DNA from: Verrucomicrobiales bacterium
GTDB taxonomy: Bacteria; Verrucomicrobiota; Verrucomicrobiia; Methylacidiphilales; JAAUTS01
Direction: 5' to 3'
Assembly: GCA_031265105.1 (NCBI GenBank)
Contig: JAISDC010000265.1
Coordinates: forward strand, 1 to 35,056
Length of the DNA stretch: 35,056 nt
The translations under genes and the position numbers were made by a program. The notes under the pieces were generated by a model that saw only the letters and a list, made by a program, of their open reading frames with translations, ran no database searches and was not told where the DNA came from. Shown here piece by piece: positions 27-35,056 of the stretch. How positions within the stretch are numbered: position 1 is the stretch's first letter; every line of letters begins with the position of its first letter.

Positions 27-224
27 TAATCCCGCAGGGATGAAATATTGATAGCCGCCGGTGTTAACCGGCGGTAGCTGTTTTTACAACGAGCCAACTC
101 CGTAGGAGTGAAATAAAAATGTCGCGCAAAGTCGCTATTTCACCCCGGCGGGGTTGATTGGGGTGATGCTACTTACCGCCGGTTGACACCGGCGGCTATC
201 AATATTTCATCCCTGCGGTATTAT
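27..224. repeat. REPIN-like inverted repeat element
   Basis: Two arms of about 53 bp face each other (27-79 and about 171-224). Both read GCAGGGATGAAATATTGATA followed by GCCGCCGGTG and CAACCGGCGGTA (in the left copy TAACCGGCGGTA), with only a few mismatches. Between them are the smaller words CTCCGTAGGAGTGAAATA and its partial inverse TATTTCACCCCGGCGGGG. The arrangement of two inverted REP-like units around a short spacer fits a non-autonomous REPIN or MITE. The GGGATGAAATATTGATAGCC and CCGTAGGAGTGAAAT words are familiar as dispersed repeats in PVC genomes. No RAYT transposase is present in the window. The element lies downstream of typA and could also fold in its 3' transcript. Confidence 0.8.
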
Positions 225-3962: not shown

Positions 3963-4057
3963 AGTGATTCCCTTTATTGATTAACAGGTAACAAAATATG
4001 GCGGCGGCACAAATTTTACAATGGACGGAACGAGGATAATATGGGACAATCTGATGG

Positions 4058-4072
4058 CGGATAAATTATCCG
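4058..4072. promoter_or_regulatory. 15-bp palindrome CGGATAAATTATCCG, candidate operator
   Basis: CGGATAA-A-TTATCCG is a perfect palindrome around a single central base. It lies in the 111-bp gap between the divergent PEP-CTERM and AraC-type genes and abuts the ATGCGCAT array. Position and symmetry suggest a regulator binding site; there is no direct evidence. Confidence 0.4.
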
Positions 4073-4189
4073 TATGCGCATCAAGGGTATGCGCATCAAG
4101 GGTATGCGCATCAAGGGTATGCGCATCAAGGGTATGCGCATCAAGGGTATGCGCATCAAGGGTATGCGCATCAAGGGTATGCGCATCAA
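4072..4189. repeat. Eight tandem 15-bp repeats (GTATGCGCATCAAGG)
   Basis: Eight near-identical copies have ATG at 4074, 4089, 4104, 4119, 4134, 4149, 4164 and 4179; only the last differs at its end. Each copy contains the perfect 8-bp palindrome ATGCGCAT, so the array offers eight palindromes at exact 15-bp spacing. The unit is five codons long and reads as (MRIKG)n in the frame of the downstream AraC gene, so it may be either its translated N-terminus or an operator array upstream of a start at 4179. Confidence 0.95.
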
Positions 4190-5198
4190 TCTTCGCAGTT
4201 CATCGCGGCCTGCCAACCGCGAGTGCCAGGGGCGGCACGCCTACCTGCCGGACCATGTCTGGCACCGGATGGCGGACCGGCCGCTGTTCGCCGGCCTGCG
4301 CATTCCCAACGCGGGGTTATTCTCGCGGGCGGCGGGGCATTATGTGGAGCGCGTGAACGGCAGCTACGCGGACGAGTTTATTTTTTGCACCGCCGGCCGG
4401 GGGTGGGTGAGCTTCGGCGACGGCCGACGCCAGGCCGTCCGGCCCGGCACGCTGATTTGGCTGCCGGCGCGCCGGCGGCACGCCTACGGCACCGGGAGCG
4501 ACCAGCGCCTGGCTTGGACGATTGAATGGGTGCATGTGGCCGGCCCGGAGGCGGCGGAGTGGGCGGCGTTGCTGGGCTTTCCCGCCGGCGGCGGGCTGCG
4601 GCACTTTGACTTCCGGCGGGCGGCAGGATTGAGCCTGGGCGGCGTGTATGAATATCTGGAGCACGGCGGCGCGCCCGCGGACCTTGCCGCCGCCGGCGCG
4701 GCGCTGCGCATGGCGCTGGCCGATTTCGCGCGCCAGTACGCGGGCGCCGCCAGGCCGGGCGGCAATTCCGCGCAGGAGCGGGTGGCGGCCACGGTGAGGC
4801 TCCTGCGCCAGCATCCGCAACAGACGCCGCGGTTGGCAGAACTGGCGCGCCGGGCGGGGTTGTCCGTGCCGCATTATCGCACGGTGTTCCGGCAGCTCAC
4901 CGGCGGCGCGCCGGTTGACTGGCTCAACCGGCAGCGCATTCTGCGCGCCTGCCGCCTGCTGGAGACGGAGGATGCGCCGGTCAGCGCGGTGGCAGAACAG
5001 ACGGGCTTCGAGGACGCCGGCTATTTCACGCGGATGTTCCGCAAGGTAACCGGGGAAACCCCGCTGGCCTACCGGCGGCGGCGGAGCGGGGACGACGAAG
5101 GCCGGCGGCTATTACCGTCCGCCGCTGAGGATGAGCGTTACCGTCGGCGGTTGGCGCCAATGGCAGCAAGTACTATTACTGGTCAAAAAGTTACCTGA
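4074..5198 (+). CDS. AraC-family transcriptional regulator
   Basis: A one-component regulator. A cupin-like AraC ligand-binding half (FIFCTAGRGWVSFGDG, then RPGTLIWLPARRRHAYGTG) is followed by an AraC-type double helix-turn-helix: RLAELARRAGLSVPHYRTVF and, in the second HTH, PVSAVAEQTGFEDAGYFTRM then FRKVTGETPLAYRRR, the family signature. The coordinates give the longest form (374 residues), with seven MRIKG repeats at the N-terminus. The most likely functional start is the last ATG of the array at 4179 (339 residues), since repeats of this kind are not part of the family. Every in-frame repeat supplies an ATG, so several starts could be used. The C-terminal 40 residues beyond the HTH are not conserved. 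The divergent PEP-CTERM gene is the obvious candidate target. Confidence 0.88.
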   Translation: MRIKGMRIKGMRIKGMRIKGMRIKGMRIKGMRIKGMRINLRSSSRPANRECQGRHAYLPDHVWHRMADRPLFAGLRIPNAGLFSRAAGHYVERVNGSYADEFIFCTAGRGWVSFGDGRRQAVRPGTLIWLPARRRHAYGTGSDQRLAWTIEWVHVAGPEAAEWAALLGFPAGGGLRHFDFRRAAGLSLGGVYEYLEHGGAPADLAAAGAALRMALADFARQYAGAARPGGNSAQERVAATVRLLRQHPQQTPRLAELARRAGLSVPHYRTVFRQLTGGAPVDWLNRQRILRACRLLETEDAPVSAVAEQTGFEDAGYFTRMFRKVTGETPLAYRRRRSGDDEGRRLLPSAAEDERYRRRLAPMAASTITGQKVT

Positions 5199-19000: not shown

Positions 19001-19105
19001 ATGCGAGCTTCATTAACGCAAAGACGCGAAGGGACGAAGGCGCGAAGAATTTTTTTACAGGGAGATCATGGAGTTCATGGAGGTTGTTAAAAAAACTGCG
19101 CCAGC

Positions 19106-19310
19106 ACTGGGAGCGCCGTCGTCCCCGACGGCTGGTTCACCTGCTAAGGTTAGTCTGCCGGCAAGATGCCGGCGCTCCCAGTTTAGACTCCGGCGCCAGC
19201 ACCTGGGAGCGCCGTCGTCCCCGACGGCTGGTTCACCTGCCAGGGTTAGTCTGCCGGCAAGGATGCCGGCGCTCCCAGTGTTTGCCGGCTGGATGCCGGC
19301 GCTCCCAGTG
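19106..19310. repeat. Two direct copies of a 77-bp CTGGGAGCGCCG palindromic repeat, plus a third partial
   Basis: Copy 1 (19106-19182) and copy 2 (about 19203-19280) both run from CTGGGAGCGCCGTCGTCCCC through CGACGGCTGGTTCACCTG to GCCGGCGCTCCCAGT. They differ at a few positions. A third piece (19283-19310) repeats TGCCGGCTGGATGCCGGCG and CTCCCAGTG. Each copy is internally inverted (CTGGGAGCGCCG against CGGCGCTCCCAG) and carries the small hairpin GCCGTCG-TCCC-CGACGGC. This belongs to a repeat type frequent in Verrucomicrobia. A half copy of the 8080/12526 palindrome (about 19051-19080) precedes it. Confidence 0.88.
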
Positions 19311-19497
19311 GCCGACTTTCCACGGTAGATTGCCGACTTTCTACGCTTCCTTGCCGGCATTCCGCGCTAGATTGCCAGCTTTCTACGCTTCCTTGCCAAC
19401 TTTCCACGCTAGATTGCCAGCTTTCTACGCTTCCTTGCCAGCATTCTACGCTTCCTTGCCAGCATTCCGCGCTAGATTGCCAGCATTCTACGGTAGA
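19309..19497. repeat. Nine tandem 21-bp repeats (TTGCCAGCWTTCTACGCTTCC)
   Basis: Units begin at 19309, 19330, 19351, 19372, 19393, 19414, 19435, 19456 and 19477, exactly 21 bp apart. Two alternating flavours are seen: TTGCCAGCTTTCTACGCTTC ending in C, and TTGCCGGCATTCCGCGCTAG ending in A. In one frame the units read as heptapeptides LPAFYAS / LPTFHAR without stops. The tract lies between the HAD gene and gcvP and has no start or family support as a protein. Confidence 0.93.
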
Positions 19498-19622
19498 AAA
19501 TTTGCCTTCCTCGACCCCCAGTCAACTTTCCCAAACGCTTAACCAAATGAAAGACAGGCGGTTGCGAGATTCGAGATTTGAGATTTGAGGTTTGAATTAT
19601 TTCCCGGTAAATTCCCCGGCCT
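19498..19622. other. gcvP upstream region
   Basis: This 125-bp leader holds a degenerate run of GAGATTTGAGATTTGAGGTTT words (about 19571-19595), a simple repeat also echoed before the SGNH gene (AAGATTGAGGATTTAAGATT). I see no glycine riboswitch, although glycine-cleavage genes often have one. A promoter must lie here or in the repeat tract. Confidence 0.5.
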
Positions 19623-22478
19623 ATGCAAATTTCTTCCCCTGACTTGTTCGCTGACCGTCACCTTGGGCCGGATGCCGCGGAGGTGGCGGCGATGTTGGCG
19701 GCGCTGGGCGAGCCGGATTTGGCGACGTTGATCGGCAAGGTGGTGCCGGCGGATATTCGGTTGCCGGGGCCGCCGCTGACGGAGGCGCCGCCGCTGACGG
19801 AGCGGGCGGCGCTGGCGCGGTTGCGCGGGCTGGCGGGGCGCAATCAGGTGTGGCGGTCGCTGATCGGGCAGGGGTATCACGGGACGGTGACGCCGGCGGT
19901 GGTGCGGCGGAATATTTTGGAGAACCCCGGCTGGTACACCGCCTACACGCCGTATCAGGCGGAGATTTCGCAGGGGCGGCTGGAAATGTTGCTGGCGTTC
20001 CAGACGATGATTTGTGAGCTAACCGGCCTCGACATTGCCAACGCCTCGCTGCTCGACGAGTCAACGGCGGCGGCGGAGGCGATGATGATGGCGTTCAATT
20101 TGCGCGGCAAGGGCGCCGGGCGGGATACGTTTTGGGTCGAGGAGCAGGTGCATCCGCAGACGCTGGCGGTGGTGCGGACGCGGGCGGCGGCGCTGGGCAT
20201 CAAGGTCAGCGTCGGCGGGCTGGCGGGGTTCGCGGCGGACGGGCAGGTTTTCGGCGCGCTGGTGCAGTATCCGAATACGCGCGGCGTTGTCAGCGAGTTC
20301 GCGGGGCTGGCGGAGCGGTTGCACGCGGACGGCGCGCTGCTGGCGGTGGCGGCGGATATTTTGGCGCTGACGGTGTTGCCGCCGCCGGCGGGGTTCGGCG
20401 CGGATATTGCGGTGGGCAGCACGCAACGGTTCGGGATGCCGCCGGGGTTCGGCGGGCCGCACGCGGCGTTTTTCGCGACGCGCGATGAGTTCAAGCGGCA
20501 GATGCCGGGGCGGTTGATCGGGGTGTCGCGGGACGCGGACGGTCGGCGCGCGCTGCGGCTGGCGTTGCAGACGCGGGAGCAGCATATTCGCCGCGACAAG
20601 GCGACGAGTAATATTTGCACGGCGCAGGTGTTGCCGGCGGTGATGGCGGCGGCGTACGCGATTTATCACGGGCCGGCGCGGTTGCGGGAGATTGCGCTGC
20701 GGGTGAACGCGCTGACGGTGACGTTGGCGCGGTGTTTGCGGCGGGCCGGGCTGCGCGTCGGCGACGGGGAGTTTTTTGATACGCTGACGGTCGGCGTCAC
20801 GCCGGGGCAACGCGGGGAGATTTTGGCGCGGGCAGCGGCGGCGAAAATCAATTTGCGCGAGTACGCTGACGGTGCGCTGGGGGTGGCGTTGGATGAGTTG
20901 TCGGATGAGGATGAGGTGCGGCGGTTGGCGGGCATTTTTGCCGGGGAGGAAGGTTGGTGTGAGCTGAGTGAGTCAGCGTCAGCGGCAGCTCCCGAACTTG
21001 GCAAACTTGCAACCCTAACCAACTCAACAAATTTTCCCCCGCGCCCGCTGACGTTCATGCGGCAGGAGATTTTCAATCGCCACCACTCGGAGACGGAGCT
21101 GCTGCGGTTTTTGAAGCGGCTGGAGAATATGGATTTGTCGCTGACGCACTCGATGATCGCGCTCGGCTCGTGCACGATGAAGCTGACGGCGACGGCGGAG
21201 ATGCTGCCGGTGACGTGGGCGGAGTTCGCTGATATTCACCCGCTCGCGCCGGCGGGACAGGCGGCGGGTTACGCGGCAATGATTGATGATTTGGAAAACT
21301 GGCTCGCGGCGCTGACCGGTTTCGCCGCCGTCTCATTGCAACCCAACTCCGGCGCGAACGGCGAATATGCCGGCCTGCTGACCATCCGCGCGTGGCACGC
21401 GGCGCAGGGTCACGGTCAGCGGGAGGTCTGCCTCATCCCGAACTCGGCGCACGGGACGAATTTCGCGAGCGCGGCGATGGCGGGGCTGCGGGTGGTGGTG
21501 GTGAATTGCGACGCTGACGGTGCGGTTGACCTGGCGGATTTGCGCGAAAAAGCGGCCGCTGCCGGTGACCGGCTGGCGTGCGCGATGGTGACGTATCCCT
21601 CGACGCACGGGATTTTCGAGGCGCGGATTCGGGAGCTGGTGGCGGTGGTGCACGCCGCCGGCGGGCAGGTGTACATGGACGGGGCGAACATGAACGCGCA
21701 GGTCGGGCTGACGAGTCCGGGGGCGATTGGCGCGGATGTGTGCCATTTGAATTTGCACAAGACCTTTGCGATGCCGCACGGCGGCGGCGGGCCGGGGGTG
21801 GGGCCGATTTGCGTCGCGGAACATTTGCGCGCGTTTCTGCCGGGCAATCCCGCTGAGGGTGAACGCAGTGTCAGCGGGGCGCGTTACGGGAGCGCGGGGG
21901 TGTTGTGCATCCCGTGGATGTATCTGGCGATGATGGGCGGCGACGGGTTGGCGCGGGCGAGCGCGCTGGCGATTTTGAACGCCAACTACGTGGCCAAACG
22001 GCTGGCGGGGCATTATCCGGTGTTGTTCAAGGGCGACGGTTATGTGGCGCACGAGTGTATTTTGGATTTGCGCCCGCTGAAGGTGACGAGCGGGGTGGAG
22101 GCGGAGGATGTGGCGAAGCGGTTGATTGATTACGGCTTTCACGCGCCGACGATGTCGTGGCCGATTCCCGGCACGCTGATGGTGGAGCCGACGGAGAGTG
22201 AGTCGCGGGAGGAGCTGGACCGTTTTTGCGACGCGCTGATCGCGATACGCGGGGAGATTGCGGCAATCGAGGGCGGCGTGTTGGACCGCGCGGATAATCC
22301 GCTGAAGGGCGCGCCGCATCCGGCGGAGTCGGTGCTGGCGGATGAGTGGCGGCGGGCGTATGCGCGCGAGCGCGCCGCTTATCCGCTGCCGGTGTTGCGC
22401 GGGAACAAATATTGGCCGCCGGTGGCGCGGGTGGATAATGTGCATGGCGACCGGAATTTGTGTTGCCGCTGCGCGTGA
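19623..22478 (+). CDS. gcvP: Glycine dehydrogenase (decarboxylating), P-protein
   Basis: PLP enzyme that decarboxylates glycine and passes the aminomethyl group to lipoyl-GcvH. At 951 residues it is the single-chain form in which the two homologous halves (GcvPA and GcvPB of other bacteria) are fused. It starts with [13 protein letters not shown] and has [28 protein letters not shown], and in the C-terminal half [41 protein letters not shown], and [19 protein letters not shown], with PLP-binding Lys713. The start at 19623 is immediately before the conserved N-terminus; no Shine-Dalgarno is apparent. gcvT, gcvH and lpd are absent from the window. Codons are strongly G-ending (GCG, CGG), unlike the C-ending usage of eno or sppA. 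Confidence 0.97.
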
Positions 22479-22535: not shown

Positions 22536-23000
22536 ATGAAATTCATCAGTCTCCTCACCATCATGTGCCTGCCGCTGACAGTCAGTCTCGCCCAGGACAC
22601 GAACAAAGCCATCGCCAACACGGTCAATGAAGTGCGCTTCCTCGAGCAAAACAAACAGCGCGAGGGCGTCAAGGCCACCAAGTCCGGCCTGCAATACGAA
22701 GTCGTCAAGGAAGGCGCCGGCGAGTCCCCCAAACCCAACCACACCGTCACCGTCCACTACGAGGGCAAACTCATCGACGGCACGGTATTCGACAGCTCCT
22801 ACCGGCGCGGCGCGCCCGCCACCTTCGGCGTCACGCAGGTGATAGCCGGCTGGACCGAGGGCCTGCAACTGATGAAACCCGGCGCGACTTACCTGTTTTA
22901 TATCCCGGCCAAGCTGGCCTACGGCGCGCGGGGCGCCGGGGATAAAATCGGGCCGAACGAGTGCCTGATTTTCAAGGTTGAATTGCTCTCCGTGCGGTAG
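22536..23000 (+). CDS. FKBP-type peptidyl-prolyl cis-trans isomerase, exported
   Basis: A 154-residue protein with an N-terminal signal peptide (MKFISLLTIMCLPLTVSLAQ), a short linker, and one FKBP domain: TKSGLQYEVVKEGAGESPKP, VTVHYEGKLIDGTVFDSSYR, VTQVIAGWTEGLQLMKPGAT, FYIPAKLAYGARG and ECLIFKVELLSV. Its likely site is the periplasm, where it would help fold exported proteins such as the autotransporter downstream. ATG 22536 begins a proper signal peptide; a GTG two codons upstream is possible. It begins 57 bp after gcvP. A large hairpin repeat follows the stop. Confidence 0.94.
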   Translation: MKFISLLTIMCLPLTVSLAQDTNKAIANTVNEVRFLEQNKQREGVKATKSGLQYEVVKEGAGESPKPNHTVTVHYEGKLIDGTVFDSSYRRGAPATFGVTQVIAGWTEGLQLMKPGATYLFYIPAKLAYGARGAGDKIGPNECLIFKVELLSVR

Positions 23001-23002
23001 TT

Positions 23003-23090
23003 TTTTTTAACCACGGATGGACACCGATGCACACGGATAAAAAAAACAAATAAACCATCCGTGTTCATTAGTGTTCATCCGTGGTTAAAA
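23003..23090. repeat. CCACGGATG palindrome after the FKBP gene
   Basis: The left arm (23003-23038, TTTTTTTAACCACGGATGGA then CACCGATGCACACGGAT) pairs with the right arm (about 23056-23090, ATCCGTGTTCATTAGTGTTC then ATCCGTGGTTAAAA). It lies directly after the FKBP stop and can serve as its terminator. It belongs to the CCACGGATG dispersed repeat family common in these genomes. Confidence 0.75.
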
Positions 23091-23392
23091 AAAACGAAAA
23101 AACCCTTGCGCAAGTCCATCAGATTCCATATCGTCACCCCGTCAAATCGTCCAATCGAGTTGTCAAAACCCGCTGAAGATGAACAAGATCAGTCATAACG
23201 TAAGTGAACCGCGCTCACGCGCTCACGCGCTCACGCGCTCACGCGCTCACAGCATGACTTCTGCCCTGACTCTTTAATTTTTCCAGGGAGTTTTGCCCGC
23301 TTTATTCCCCATCCGGCAGCACTCCGGCGTTTCATAACACGTCCCCACTCTATCACCGTCAGCGCCACCTTCGTGGCCGGAGTTAACCCTTT
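23091..23392. other. Autotransporter upstream region
   Basis: This 302-bp gap carries no gene. It contains five perfect copies of an 8-bp repeat (listed separately), one ACCGTCAGCG word (23355-23364), and the sequence CTTCGTGGCCGGAGTT (about 23368-23383), which also occurs near 2577-2592 before the 3' end of the PEP-CTERM gene. The promoter of the autotransporter must be here but I cannot assign it. Confidence 0.5.
23211..23250. repeat. Five tandem copies of GCGCTCAC
   Basis: Five exact 8-bp units run without interruption, 142 bp upstream of the autotransporter start. A short perfect array of this kind is prone to slippage, so copy number could vary between cells and affect promoter spacing. 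Confidence 0.95.
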
Positions 23393-25819
23393 ATGAATCC
23401 ATCCATAATAAACAAACTAACCCTAATATTAACTCTCCTCGCCATCCTCAGCGGCCCACTGGCGGCGCCCTGGCCGGCGTCAGCGGCCACCAGAATTATG
23501 ATTGGCGGCACCCTGGCGGAAGCCGATGCCGGTTACACCCCCAGAGTCGTCGGCGCCGACAGTTGGTCGGCCATCATGCTCGTGCAGGGCGCTCAGTACA
23601 GCGGCACGCGGATCACGGCTGAAAGTTCGATTGACGCCACGGCCTACCCTGAGGGCAGCAAAGCGGTTTGGGCGAATGCCAGCGAGGTGTTCCTTTATAG
23701 CAGCACCATTGCCACAACCGGGTTGGGGGCCGATAGCGTTTTCCTTCACAACGGAGCGATCGGTTGGCTGGAAAATACCACCGTCACCAGCTCCGGCAGC
23801 ATGGCCGCGTCAGTGCGGGTGCAGCACAACGGCAATCTGACCGTCATCGGCGGCACTATTGCCGCCACCGGCAGCAGCGCCACCCCTGTGTTGGTCCATA
23901 ATAACGCCAAGCTCAACGTGAAGGACGCGGTCATTATCAGCAACAATAACCAGGCCGCTGTAACGGCGCTGAGCGGCGGAGAGGTCGGGTTGCATGATAC
24001 CAGCATTCAAGCTCCAGTCACGGGGCTGTCGGTCTCAGACGGCCGGATTTTCGGCAATAACCTGGCAATGACCGGCGCAATTTCGGCGAGTAACAACGGA
24101 GATATAAAACTGCAAGACAGCGTCGTGAGCGGCACCGCCAGCATAATCAGCGTGCACAGCAACGGCTCAGTGACCGTGACCGGCGGCACCTTGACCAGCA
24201 CCGGCAGCAGCAGGAACGTGGCACTCATCCGCGGCGACGGCACCATCAATCTCGACAACGTGGACACCGCCGCCGCCGGCGGCATCTCCACCACCGGGAG
24301 CTTTACCGGCACCGCCACCGTCAACCTCAGCGGCGGCAGCGGCCTCAACGGCGACGCCATCAACAGCGGCAGCGGCGCGCTGACCGTGAACCTCGATCAC
24401 GGCACCATGCTTGGCAATGTTGCCAACCAAGGCGACGGCACGCTGACCATCATCCTTGATAACGACTCAATCGGCACCGGCGGCTTCGCCGGCGGCAACC
24501 TGATCACGGGCAGCGACAGCGGGTGGACCTTCACCAAAGACAGCCACGGCAACTACGGCGAGAATAACGGCGTGTGGAACATCGGCGATTATGAAGTCAT
24601 CTTCGACAACATGATTCACAGCGGTACCGTCACCATCAGCGTCAACAGCGACACCGGCGACGGCGGCTCCATCACCATCACCGATACCGCTGACGGTGAG
24701 GGTACCGTTCACATCAACACCACCGGCAACGGCCAGGCCGACCCGAACAAAGTTCTCCCCGGCATCGTCAGCGGCGACGGCACGGAACACTGGCAATGGG
24801 ATCCCATCGACTGGGGTATCGACACCATCATCAAGGACGGCGACCACTTCATCAAAAACGGCACCAGCCCCGCCGGTGCGGTCTTGAACAGCAGCGTGGC
24901 GATCCAGCAAGCCATGTGGTTCGCGCAGCAAAACAGTTTGCTCAAGCGTATGGGCGAGTTGCGCTATGGAGCGCGGGCGTCCCGCCCGCCAGCGGGCGAG
25001 ACGCCCGCGCGCCATATAATTGAAAACATCTGGCTCAGAAGCTACGGCCAACAGCTCAACGTCGGCAGCAAAGTTTCAGGCAAAGCCTACGAACAACTCA
25101 TCTATGGCGTCGATCTCGGCACTGACCATAAGTTCACCATCAGCGCTGACAGTGACTTGTACTTGGGCGTGTACGCCGGCTACGGTCGCAGTGATATAGA
25201 CTACCGCACCCCCGGCACTGACGGTGAGATTAACAGCTACTACGGCGGCCTCTACGCCACTTGGCTCCACGCCAGCGGCTTCTACATCGACGCCACCTTC
25301 AAAGCTGCCAGTGTCAACAACGACTTGAAAGCCCCCTACGGCAGCACTCAACTCACCGCCAACTACAGTGACGTCAACATCGGCGGCAGCCTCGAAATCG
25401 GGAAGAAGTTCACCTTCGCCGATGATTGGTTCATCGAGCCTCAGTTCCAAGTCAACTACCTCCACATCCTCGCCGAGGATTACACCGCCGGCCCGATGAC
25501 CATCAGCGCCCAAGACCTCGACGCCCTGCAACTCCGCATCGGCAGTCTCTTCGGCAGAACCATCAACCTCACCAACAGCGGCGCATTACAACCTTACGTG
25601 AAGATCAGCGGCGTAGAAACCATCAGCAGCGGTGGCACCCTGCGCAACGGCTACCAACACACCCGCGCCAACACTGACGGTGCCAGAGCCGAACTCGGCG
25701 GCGGCCTCATCTGGCAACTCGACGCTAACAATCAACTCCACCTCGACTACGAAGCCACCTTCGGCGACAAGTACGACAAACCCTGGGGCCTAACAGCAGG
25801 CTACCGTCACCAGTTCTAA
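23393..25819 (+). CDS. Autotransporter outer-membrane beta-barrel protein
   Basis: An 808-residue type V secretion-like protein. Residues 1-32 are a signal peptide (IINKLTLILTLLAILSGPLA, ending WPASAA). The passenger (about 33-510) is a pertactin-like parallel beta-helix of short repeats such as NLTVIGGTIAATGSS and SVTVTGGTLTSTGSS. RMGELRYG, the usual junction, is followed by IWLRSYGQQLNVGS and a 12-strand-type barrel ending TAGYRHQF with the terminal Phe of outer-membrane proteins. Between junction and barrel, residues 526-541 are encoded by an inserted palindrome (24971-25010). No protease motif is visible. A hairpin at 25856-25886 follows the stop. Confidence 0.93.
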   Translation: MNPSIINKLTLILTLLAILSGPLAAPWPASAATRIMIGGTLAEADAGYTPRVVGADSWSAIMLVQGAQYSGTRITAESSIDATAYPEGSKAVWANASEVFLYSSTIATTGLGADSVFLHNGAIGWLENTTVTSSGSMAASVRVQHNGNLTVIGGTIAATGSSATPVLVHNNAKLNVKDAVIISNNNQAAVTALSGGEVGLHDTSIQAPVTGLSVSDGRIFGNNLAMTGAISASNNGDIKLQDSVVSGTASIISVHSNGSVTVTGGTLTSTGSSRNVALIRGDGTINLDNVDTAAAGGISTTGSFTGTATVNLSGGSGLNGDAINSGSGALTVNLDHGTMLGNVANQGDGTLTIILDNDSIGTGGFAGGNLITGSDSGWTFTKDSHGNYGENNGVWNIGDYEVIFDNMIHSGTVTISVNSDTGDGGSITITDTADGEGTVHINTTGNGQADPNKVLPGIVSGDGTEHWQWDPIDWGIDTIIKDGDHFIKNGTSPAGAVLNSSVAIQQAMWFAQQNSLLKRMGELRYGARASRPPAGETPARHIIENIWLRSYGQQLNVGSKVSGKAYEQLIYGVDLGTDHKFTISADSDLYLGVYAGYGRSDIDYRTPGTDGEINSYYGGLYATWLHASGFYIDATFKAASVNNDLKAPYGSTQLTANYSDVNIGGSLEIGKKFTFADDWFIEPQFQVNYLHILAEDYTAGPMTISAQDLDALQLRIGSLFGRTINLTNSGALQPYVKISGVETISSGGTLRNGYQHTRANTDGARAELGGGLIWQLDANNQLHLDYEATFGDKYDKPWGLTAGYRHQF
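24971..25010. repeat. 40-bp palindrome inserted in frame in the autotransporter gene
   Basis: GCGCGGGCGTCCCGCCCGC (24971-24989) and GCGGGCGAGACGCCCGCGC (24992-25010) pair with one mismatch around a 2-base loop. The sequence is read in frame as ARASRPPAGETPAR. The same GCGCGGGCGTCCCGCCCGC word is known to me as an intergenic repeat of Verrucomicrobia. It is far more GC-rich than the flanking codons, as expected for an insertion. Confidence 0.88.
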
Positions 25820-25920
25820 ACCACGAATAAACACGAATTGACACGAATAACATGCAAGAGGCAACCGCTGACCGTGGTTGCCTCTTTCATTAGTGTCCAT
25901 TCGTGTCAATCCGTGGTTAA
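25818..25920. repeat. Nested palindrome after the autotransporter (CCACGAAT outer, GAGGCAACC inner)
   Basis: The outer arms AACCACGAATAAACACGAAT and ATTCGTGTCAATCCGTGGTT are imperfect members of the CCACGGAT repeat family. They enclose a perfect inner hairpin, listed separately. The structure begins at the autotransporter stop codon. Confidence 0.7.
25856..25886 (+). terminator. Hairpin AAGAGGCAACC / GGTTGCCTCTT after the autotransporter
   Basis: Perfect 11-bp arms at 25856-25866 and 25876-25886 enclose a 9-base loop that carries the CGCTGAC word. It lies 37 bp after the stop codon. Stem strength and position fit a transcription terminator, though the T-run is short. Confidence 0.65.
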
Positions 25921-26097
25921 AAATCTCCGCGCCTCCGCGTCTCCGCGGTTAAGTGTTGTTAAAAAATCCTTCGGGCCTTCGTGGTGCAATTATTTTCCGC
26001 CAACGAAAAAATTGTACTGCCAAATTGCGGATTTGCCTTACATTAAACGCCCCGCGCGGTTCATGCCGAGTCGCGCCACAAGAAAGGAAGCCCGGTT
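25921..26097. other. gltA upstream region with decayed repeats
   Basis: The first half holds CTCCGCGCCTCCGCGTCTCC and CCTTCGGGCCTTCGTGGTGC repeat words. The stretch around 26000-26060 is more AT-rich and is the likely promoter region for the citrate synthase gene. No gene is visible. Confidence 0.45.
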
Positions 26098-33257: not shown

Positions 33258-35056
33258 ATGAAGACCAACCATATATCCAACTGGGCCGTGTTGCTGCTGA
33301 CCGTCAGCGGCATGACGGCATTGCCGCTGACGATGTCGGCACAAAACCTAATAGTGAACGGCTCCGCTGTCACCCAAACCGGAACCCATTACGAAAGTTC
33401 CAGCGCTGAGGCGGCGTTGTTCATCAGAAGCGGTACGTTCAACGGCACCAACATCATACTGACCGGGACCGGACCGGTCGGCGAAAATGCTTCAAACGCG
33501 GTTCGCCTGGATAGCGGCGCCGCGTTGTCCCTGTATGATAGCACGATCAATGCGTTCAACGGCTTTGCCCTGAACACCAACGCGGTGACGGTTTACTTAC
33601 AGAACACCAATGTTTCCTCGGAGCTTAGCCGTGGCATCAACGTTTATAATACCGCCAGCGTGGTTATGGTTGGAGGCACGGTCAGCTCCGCCGCTAACTA
33701 CGCCTTGTTCGTGGACAACGCCTCCAGTTTTACGGGAACCGATGTCAGCGTAGTCTCGGGTAGCAGTAGCGGGGTTTATGTGAACCGTTCCGGTTCGGCG
33801 GTATTTCGCGGGAAATTGCAAGTCACGGCCGACAGGTCGGCTATTATCGCGACACAAGGCGGCTATGTCGATTTGGGCGAGGACGCGCATTTGACGGGGC
33901 GTGGTGGCATCGAAGTATTCACGAGCGGCACTGTGGTCGGCACTAACACGGAAATCAACGGCGGCGTGGGCGGTTCGGGTAACGCCATCAGCATCAGCGG
34001 CACTGGCAGCGGACTGGTGTCACTGGTCAATCCGACCGCGCAAAACAGCGGTTCCGGCTCATTGATCTCGTTTGGCGGTAGCGGCACCAACACGGTGGAA
34101 ATTGCGGGCGGCAGCCTGACGGCCTCCGGCGATAGCATGGGTATCGTCGCGTCAGGTGCCTTCAATACCGTCAAGGTCAGCGATGGCGGCAGTATCACCG
34201 GCGATGTCACCGGCAGCGGCAGCGCCACCATCGACCTCGGCCTGACCGGCACCAACAGCGGCATCACCGGCGACATCACCGGCAGCGGCGACAGCAGCAT
34301 CACCATCACCGGCAGCGACGGCGCCATCATCACCGGCACCGTCAGCGGCAATGAGAACGCGGTCATCGACCTCACCGTCACCGGCAGCGACAGCATCTTC
34401 ACCGGCGACGTCATCGCCAGCGGCAGCAGCAATGTGACTGTCACCGGCAGCGACGACGCGACCATCACCGGCAACATCACCGGCAGCGAAGACAGCACCA
34501 TCACCATCGGCGGCGACGGCAACATCATCATCGGTGACCTCACCGGCAGCGGCAGTTCAACTATTGACCTCGACCTGACCGGCTCGAACAGCGGCGTCAC
34601 CGGCGACATCACCGGCAGCGGCGACAGCCAAATCGTCATCACCGGCAGCGACGGCGTCATCATCACCGGCACTGTCACCGGCAACAATGATTCCGTCATC
34701 GACATCACCGTCACTGGCAGCGATAGCATCTTCACCGGCGACATCACCGCCAGCGGCAGCAGCAATGTGACTGTCACCGGCAGTGACAGCGCGACCATCA
34801 CCGGCAACATCACTGGCAGCGAAGACAGCACCGTCACCATCGGCGGCGACGGCCCCATCATCATCGGTGACGTAACCGGCAGCGGCAGCGCCACCATTGA
34901 CCTCGACCTGACCGGCACCAACAGCGGTGTCACCGGCGACATCACCGGCAGCGGCGACAGCAAAATCACCATCACCGGCTGCGACGGCGCCATCATCAAC
35001 GGAACAGACCCCGTCAGAACTCAATACCCCCTCACGAATCGCGTCTCCGGCCGCGA
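33258..35056 (+). CDS. Repetitive autotransporter/adhesin-type protein, 3' end beyond the window
   Basis: An open frame from ATG 33258 to the window edge (599 codons, no stop). It opens with a signal peptide (NWAVLLLTVSGMTALPLTMS, cleavage probably after SAQ). The first 310 residues are a degenerate beta-helix resembling the complete autotransporter at 23393, with units such as NAVTVYLQNTNVSSE. From residue about 320 it becomes a highly regular repeat of 111 residues built of five ~22-residue strands such as ITITGSDGAIITGTVSGNEN. Expected downstream parts (barrel) are not in the window. The last 60 bases depart from the repeat pattern. It is divergent from the XRE gene. Confidence 0.85.
   Translation, partial: MKTNHISNWAVLLLTVSGMTALPLTMSAQNLIVNGSAVTQTGTHYESSSAEAALFIRSGTFNGTNIILTGTGPVGENASNAVRLDSGAALSLYDSTINAFNGFALNTNAVTVYLQNTNVSSELSRGINVYNTASVVMVGGTVSSAANYALFVDNASSFTGTDVSVVSGSSSGVYVNRSGSAVFRGKLQVTADRSAIIATQGGYVDLGEDAHLTGRGGIEVFTSGTVVGTNTEINGGVGGSGNAISISGTGSGLVSLVNPTAQNSGSGSLISFGGSGTNTVEIAGGSLTASGDSMGIVASGAFNTVKVSDGGSITGDVTGSGSATIDLGLTGTNSGITGDITGSGDSSITITGSDGAIITGTVSGNENAVIDLTVTGSDSIFTGDVIASGSSNVTVTGSDDATITGNITGSEDSTITIGGDGNIIIGDLTGSGSSTIDLDLTGSNSGVTGDITGSGDSQIVITGSDGVIITGTVTGNNDSVIDITVTGSDSIFTGDITASGSSNVTVTGSDSATITGNITGSEDSTVTIGGDGPIIIGDVTGSGSATIDLDLTGTNSGVTGDITGSGDSKITITGCDGAIINGTDPVRTQYPLTNRVSGR
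34221..35000. repeat. 333-bp tandem repeats (about 2.3 copies) in the adhesin gene
   Basis: The word for S-x-T-I-D-L-D-L starts at 34221, 34554 and 34887, exactly 333 bp (111 codons) apart. The copies encode nearly the same protein, from TIDLDLTGTNSGVTGDITGS to TIGGDGNIIIGDLTGSG, with scattered synonymous and conservative changes. Inside each copy are five shorter strand repeats that share the ACCGGCAGCGGC and GGCAGCGAC words. Confidence 0.93.

Follow-up and report, generated by a model that had tools for sequence, protein, structure and literature searches.

Introduction

REPs are defined, in the passages cited here, by a GT(A/G)G head 5' of a palindrome (PMC2817692, PMC3733652). Two inverted REPs in one hairpin make a REPIN and, in the account on which we draw, REPINs occur in many near-identical copies, in genomes with RAYT-like genes, and are placed in extragenic space (PMC3116915). 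Intragenic REP dimers are nevertheless known from Opitutus terrae, a member of the Verrucomicrobia, and flexible linkers have been proposed as sites that tolerate them (PMC3733652). Rickettsia palindromic elements (RPEs) are likewise palindromes that lie in ORFs without breaking the frame (PMC3767692, PMC2635572), and a case in the same region with a Wolbachia element has also been described (PMC3767692). An old question raised by the Rickettsia elements is whether repeats that invade genes amount to noise that is tolerated or supply material from which proteins are made.

Here we analyse a stretch of 35,056 nucleotides from a Verrucomicrobiales bacterium (the window), in which a 52-bp palindrome is read in frame between the helix and the barrel of an autotransporter. 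With REPINs it shares the inverted doublet, the hairpin, the many near-identical copies and the RAYT-like genes elsewhere in the genome; it is a candidate REPIN-like element by its sequence, but it has a spacer of only 2 bp and is not extragenic (PMC3116915). In the parts of the O. terrae description used here, the dimers come from the same phylum and are also inverted hairpin pairs read in frame, with 20-30 amino acids per dimer and in some cases spacers of 1-2 bp; in contrast, the heads are TATGG/CTGGG here and GTAG/GTGG in the GTAG/CGTC-tagged REPs, and the O. terrae dimers lie in scattered genes, many of DNA synthesis or repair, whereas those described here occupy one homologous linker in a large paralogous family (PMC3733652). 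The likeness to Rickettsia palindromic elements drawn in the original prediction holds for behaviour, but RPEs are 100-150 bp long (PMC3767692, PMC2635572), and the closest known kind is the REP/REPIN dimer.

What is new is that a single homologous linker is occupied across a whole family, and that the repeats which occupy it in two lineages are unrelated. We know of no RPE that has spread through a paralogue family. In the open-licence literature we found no report of palindromic repeats in autotransporters, including those of Verrucomicrobia and of termite-gut bacteria.

The palindrome and its host gene

The features of the locus are as follows.

23393..25819, + strand: autotransporter gene, 808 aa (ORF list, PF03797, TIGR01414)
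24878..24964, + strand: conserved helix region preceding the barrel, AVLNSSVAIQQAMWFAQQNSLLKRMGELR (alignment and model)
24965..25018, + strand: codons for residues 525-542, the linker YGARASRPPAGETPARHI (modelled with low pLDDT; gap in BrkA)
24965..25016, no strand assigned: REP-like dimer (REPIN-like), with outward heads and a 2-bp joint (CA) between the tails (paralogous linkers of two genomes have 108 such dimers)
24965..24989, + strand: left unit, 25 bp, TATGGAGC head followed by the hairpin GCGGGCG-TCC-CGCCCGC (same 25-mer also outside autotransporters)
24992..25016, - strand: right unit, 25 bp, reverse complement TATGGCGCGCGGGCGTCTCGCCCGC, with one head change relative to the consensus
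25019..25816, + strand: autotransporter beta-barrel (PF03797, TIGR01414, Foldseek best match BrkA 3qq2)

A near-perfect 40-bp hairpin had been predicted at 24971-25010, in frame in the linker between passenger and barrel. The hairpin is real, with 18 of 20 arm positions complementary, and the frame reads through it as ARASRPPAGETPAR (residues 527-540), within the linker YGARASRPPAGETPARHI. The 40-mer is, however, the inner part of a larger element of 52 bp (24965-25016), in which 23 of 26 positions are complementary; the next-best centred 52-bp palindrome in the window reaches 18 of 26. As RNA the dimer folds at -46.8 kcal/mol (z = -6.5), and none of 200 shuffles was equally stable. The general form of the unit is the TATGGAGC head plus a short hairpin, GCGGGCG-TCY-CGCCCGC.

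The beta-domain of the 808-aa ORF matches Autotransporter PF03797 with an E-value of 1.8e-40, as well as TIGR01414, and with the preceding helix it has the make-up of a type Va autotransporter barrel. Both its sequence and its predicted fold match BrkA/EspP-type barrels: phmmer aligns it with BrkA at E 2.6e-28, and Foldseek gives BrkA 3qq2 as the best match to the predicted fold. In the phmmer alignment BrkA has a gap of 14 residues, which coincides exactly with the peptide that the repeat encodes, in agreement with the earlier statement that such autotransporters normally join passenger and barrel directly. BrkA has a short linker, whereas the linker here is of 17-21 residues and largely repeat-derived. 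In an AlphaFold2 model with a mean pLDDT of 88, the linker (fragment residues 41-60) is a low-confidence coil leading from a short helix to the first strand; it is loop-like, as expected of the tolerant position that had been proposed. A 41-sequence alignment likewise shows it as a gap-rich stretch between two conserved blocks.

The host genome (G000) is a 3.0-Mb assembly in 289 contigs, and all the genomes compared are fragmented metagenome assemblies. Matches to the barrel number 123 in the host genome, of which many are fragments where a contig ends, and the relatives of the barrel in named genomes are in Verrucomicrobiales MAGs.

Occupancy of the linker across the family

The original prediction implied a single insertion in one gene, by a repeat that is otherwise intergenic. 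Instead, dozens of paralogues in each genome have it, and the dimer is the usual state of the family: among barrels of at least 84% identity in G000 and the congener G002, it occupies 108 of the 117 linkers that could be read. In G000 these are 55 of 62 readable linkers (48 of subtype T1, 6 T2 and 1 T3), leaving out C276, C83 and C9, whose linkers are cut or broken, and in G002 they are 53 of 55 sampled linkers (22 T1, 29 T2 and 2 T3). C53 and C266_5647 were not counted as T1. The two species have different ratios of T1 to T2 (48:6 in G000 against 22:29 in G002; Fisher p = 9e-7).

A 32-base core pattern, allowing three mismatches, was found at 52 places in the 3.0-Mb genome, and its reversed-pattern control at none. 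Of the 50 places listed, 49 have a paralogous barrel directly downstream when compared by eye; the remaining one, on C129, apparently falls at the end of a contig. A search for the 40-mer in intergenic spacers had been suggested as a check, but among the places listed the joined dimer was found only in linkers of the barrel family. The palindrome is dispersed, as predicted, but away from the linkers it takes the form of the single 25-bp unit or of widely spaced inverted pairs.

The subtypes differ in one or other unit. T1 encodes ARASRPxAG[E/G]TPALH, T2 has a second unit GCGGACAAGGATGTCCGC... and the peptide ADKDVRVPY, and T3 has a first unit ...GCATCCTTGC.... The T2 and T3 dimers are 53 bp long, against 52 bp, and right flanks of different length restore the frame. 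All 108 dimers are in frame with helix and barrel, in part by construction since a single frame was used to delimit the linkers. Two of the genes, C193 and C281 of G000, have TAG at the first linker codon, which cuts off the barrel. The linker of C276 is either truncated or out of frame.

In the two genomes, nine close paralogues lack a REP dimer at the linker, and native linkers are present even in barrels of 93% identity. Those of the close paralogues C144, C89, C40, C212, C220, C189 and C153 are 66-75 nt, and the dimer linkers 51-63 nt. Because the two are of about the same length, we infer that the native linker was displaced, and it seems to have been replaced by the dimer rather than split. 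No clean empty site was seen among the linkers of close paralogues, and no target duplication or transposition event was seen. The divergent G000 barrel C53 (50% identity) has a diverged dimer of its own in the linker.

Age of the dimer and selection on it

Between T1 paralogues, the dimer has a synonymous divergence of 0.068 (n = 68) and a pN/pS of 0.97. The helix, at 0.442 (n = 63), and the barrel, at 0.348 (n = 60), are more diverged at synonymous sites, with pN/pS values of 0.17 and 0.20, respectively. The edges are sharp. In finer windows, the 15 bp ahead of the T1 dimer have a pS of 0.415 and the 15 bp that follow it one of 0.259, and the dimer itself has 0.069; the T2 values, in the order before, inside and after, are 0.451, 0.035 and 0.188. 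Within the barrel pS varies, with window 60-90 as low as 0.12. The low value in the dimer relative to its flanks means that the dimer is far younger than its host genes, or that it has been homogenised alone, and a pN/pS of about 1 indicates that the peptide is not selected beyond its frame.

A peptide already encoded by the hairpin in the ancestor of the family, and inherited by duplication, would be expected to be common to two species, in frame and in most paralogues, as is seen. The original prediction took the same peptide with divergent codons as the sign of such an ancestral linker, but the codons of the dimer are nearly identical whilst its flanks are strongly diverged, synonymous divergence being 5-6 times lower than on either side. 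Native linkers in 93%-identical barrels, three congeners without the repeat and the absence of the residues from BrkA argue in the same direction, and we regard inheritance from the family ancestor as very unlikely. Judged by the sequence comparisons, the spread of the dimer was recent and precise, and only its frame has been kept.

The low synonymous diversity could alternatively be explained by constraint on the sequence itself, with the hairpin kept by selection on DNA or RNA, for instance as an mRNA structure or a protein-binding site. The very stable fold fits such a role, as do the low diversity and a few paired changes, which 4 of 32 distinct rows show in the half hairpins. Covariation in the long stem is mostly absent, however: pairs 6/45 and 17/34 are often mismatched. 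Nine close paralogues manage without the dimer, and congeners that lack REPs use other linkers. Selection of this kind is therefore improbable as the reason for the hairpin's persistence.

Probable exchange among barrels

Linkage among sites in 96 complete barrels (53 from G000 and 43 from G002) falls to the background level within about 30 bp, the mean r2 in G000 being 0.25 at 1-5 bp and 0.024 at 30-60 bp. The linker type has a near-background association with flanking sites. Saturation of synonymous sites offers another possible reading of the decay in r2. Given linkage equilibrium beyond about 30 bp, a single tree of the barrels is meaningless.

Of 21 reciprocal passenger pairs listed, we used the 16 with most bits (those left out being C147/L191, C171/L216, C2_9475/L200, C14_3526/L199 and C34/L187). 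The linker type differs in seven of the 16, two of which are native against T2. The far passenger is 94.5% identical in orthologous pairs, but the barrel is only about as alike as in random paralogues. The exception is C212/L240, with a native linker in both species and a barrel that is 94-100% identical; it is also the sole pair of nine testable with the same downstream neighbourhood, the neighbour differing in the other eight. These data suggest exchange among barrels, and the gene family behaves like a freely recombining population. Each of the two genomes, G000 and G002, holds dozens of autotransporter paralogues near linkage equilibrium, with barrels shuffled relative to passengers.

These results bear on whether the palindrome might itself be a site of recombination, at which barrels are joined to different passengers. 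The poor resemblance between the barrels of passenger-orthologous pairs would fit that role, as would the changed downstream neighbours and the native linker of the one syntenic pair. The hairpin can be ruled out as a passenger/barrel cassette boundary, though, since the sequence shared by paralogues begins about 105-120 nt upstream of the linker, which places the hairpin inside the constant module. Linkage is lost throughout the barrel, not at the hairpin only, and C89 and C144, which have native linkers, also have shuffled barrels; moreover, assembly joins within barrels could mimic the synteny result. On balance a recombination site seems a poor candidate.

Misjoining of near-identical paralogues during assembly might also be held to produce the whole pattern, given that these are metagenome assemblies and that the ends of many contigs fall inside barrels. 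Wrong joins there could add to the synteny result, but they would not account for the 30-bp linkage result: the decay takes place over 15-30 bp, a distance that a single short read covers, and the dimers lie inside intact frames in two separate genomes. An artefact of this sort is scarcely credible.

Other repeats in the same linker

The congener G001 has no REP unit, but a dispersed repeat, CATCCTGAGCTTGTCGAAGG, which encodes HPELVEG, lies in the same linker of three of its genes, whose barrels are 46-75% identical to that of the window. The repeat has 15 copies in G001 (at most one mismatch) and none in G000 or G002. In the linkers it is forward twice (FNAPHSSSAHPELVEGL and YNTPHSSSTHPELVEGL) and reversed once (YNDTLRQAQGERGL), and it is missing from the 11 other G001 junctions examined. 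The closest to an empty site in this genome is RYNTPSKGNL (L297) beside RYNTPHSSSTHPELVEGL (L288). The CATCCTGAGCTTGTCGAAGG copies, together with the diverged dimer of C53, indicate that the linker has taken up repeat DNA repeatedly.

Three other linker sequences were considered as possible dispersed repeats, and in no case did the matches show dispersal. The CTCGTC repeats of C153, C189 and C220 match those linkers only, the repeat in the L221 linker has three matches in G002, and the GTGAAGAG-type pattern was found in 307 loci only at the L291 place (as L125, L230 and L291). The G001 linkers NSEERKVKSGD (L291) and NSEERRVKSES (L295), both of the GTGAAGAG type, look alike and have the appearance of a third repeat.

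The unit outside the linkers and a candidate mobiliser

The 15-base arm has 144 matches in G000, of which about 100 were listed, and its control has none. At 20 places inspected away from barrels, the unit stands alone or forms inverted pairs with a long spacer, and the sibling class (CTGGGAGCGCC plus hairpin) is often its neighbour; among the listed places no inverted units joined by 2 bp were found outside linkers. Seven ORFs of at least 180 aa run across non-barrel copies; two have a Pfam domain, with the repeat outside it in both, and the copies examined elsewhere in G000 lie outside recognised protein domains. In a search of 60 genomes, including the host's own, the 23-mer unit (at most one mismatch) gave 150 matches in G000 (control 0) and 136 in G002, none in three other congeners, 10 one-mismatch forms in one genome of the same family and none in the remainder.

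With these 150 matches the unit is, like a REP, a short GC-rich imperfect palindrome in more than 100 copies per genome, and its pairing into one hairpin is that of a REPIN. The name 'REP-like' was chosen because the head is TATGGAGC (CTGGGAGC in the sibling class) and not GT(A/G)G, and because the joined copies are not predominantly extragenic, most of those in G000 being in autotransporter linkers.

Four matches to Y1 transposases were found in G000, three of which match the NCBI RAYT model below its cut-off. None of the four loci, as read, is flanked by a TATGGAGC unit. C187 alone among the candidate RAYTs has REPs beside and inside it, all of the sibling class, and this RAYT-like gene is the only unrelated gene found with an in-frame REP. 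The dimer within it (L262:1635-1705) reads LGAPSSPTACAKKPTRTSAPP, and another REP pair lies upstream.

It is conceivable that RAYT-driven insertion of the dimer took place many times independently, into the same linker of each gene. The sharp 5' edge (pS 0.415 within 15 bp), the uncoupling of linker type from its flanks and the RAYT-like genes in the genome are all consistent with this, and so are the diverged dimer in the 50%-identical barrel of C53 and the other repeat in G001 linkers. However, none of the places listed outside linkers has a dimer with the 2-bp joint, and the native linker is gone rather than split. Furthermore, the derived T2 right unit (GGAC form) was found in G000 in linkers only (4 of 4 matches at no more than one mismatch), which points to copying from linker to linker. 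We consider many separate insertions unlikely, although this deserves more weight than the alternatives above.

In the window itself, the intergenic repeats near 19105-19310 are of the sibling class (CTGGGAGCGCC...) and not the linker-type unit:

19105..19310, no strand assigned: cluster of five units of the sibling REP-like class (CTGGGAGCGCC plus hairpin), with both orientations represented, immediately upstream of the ORF at 19623

Elsewhere in G000, L145:1440-1530 (C59:1640-1730) is a lone linker fragment, with MGELR-like codons and one REP unit, upstream of an arginine-kinase-like gene; it is perhaps the relic of a lost autotransporter.

Proposed entry and spread of the dimer

The explanation that we favour, to which we give a probability of roughly two in three, is that a REP-like dimer entered the linker and spread through paralogues that exchange sequence, under selection for frame only, and that the linker is a recurrent landing site. 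A mobile palindrome dimer would have entered, in frame, the disordered linker between the pore helix and the first barrel strand and displaced the native linker, either once, in the ancestor that this species shares with its closest congener, or separately in the two. The original entry would have been by RAYT-type transposition. In a large family whose members exchange short tracts, the dimer could then have spread recently and precisely, as at least three subtypes, and presumably did so mainly by copying between paralogues. Selection on the linker would act on the reading frame only, and the unrelated repeat of the congener would mark the same spot as one where repeats land again and again. 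The sequence, distribution, frame and relative age of the dimer, its uncoupling from the flanks and the congener's other repeat are the parts of this account that were observed directly.

More tentatively, and with odds well short of even, the linker might be a replicating niche, in which conversion limited to the hairpin multiplies the dimer without a transposase so that joined copies outside are outnumbered, with unrelated repeats in the same role in other lineages.

Stray repeats seem to find in this linker joint a natural docking spot, at which they become protein. In each genome this one linker supplies dozens of parallel cases, with a neutral clock to either side: inserted DNA evolves at a pN/pS near 1 with its frame kept, and a sister lineage has an unrelated repeat at the same spot. 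As a result, the tolerance of a site, spread within a family and the persistence of REPs in coding DNA become directly measurable.

Further repeats in the window

Inverted copies of another repeat (AACCACGGAT...ATCCGTGGTT), at 23000-23095 and 25878-25923, bracket the autotransporter gene, and a related motif lies within 500 nt downstream of nine of the 72 paralogues examined. There are also tandem arrays at 4042-4219 and 19311-19499, with units of 15 bp (GTATGCGCATCAAGG) and 21 bp (GCCAGCTTTCTACGCTTCCTT), respectively. At the end of the window (34167-35010) are long internal repeats of the ACCGGCAGCGGC type, probably belonging to another large, repeat-rich surface protein.
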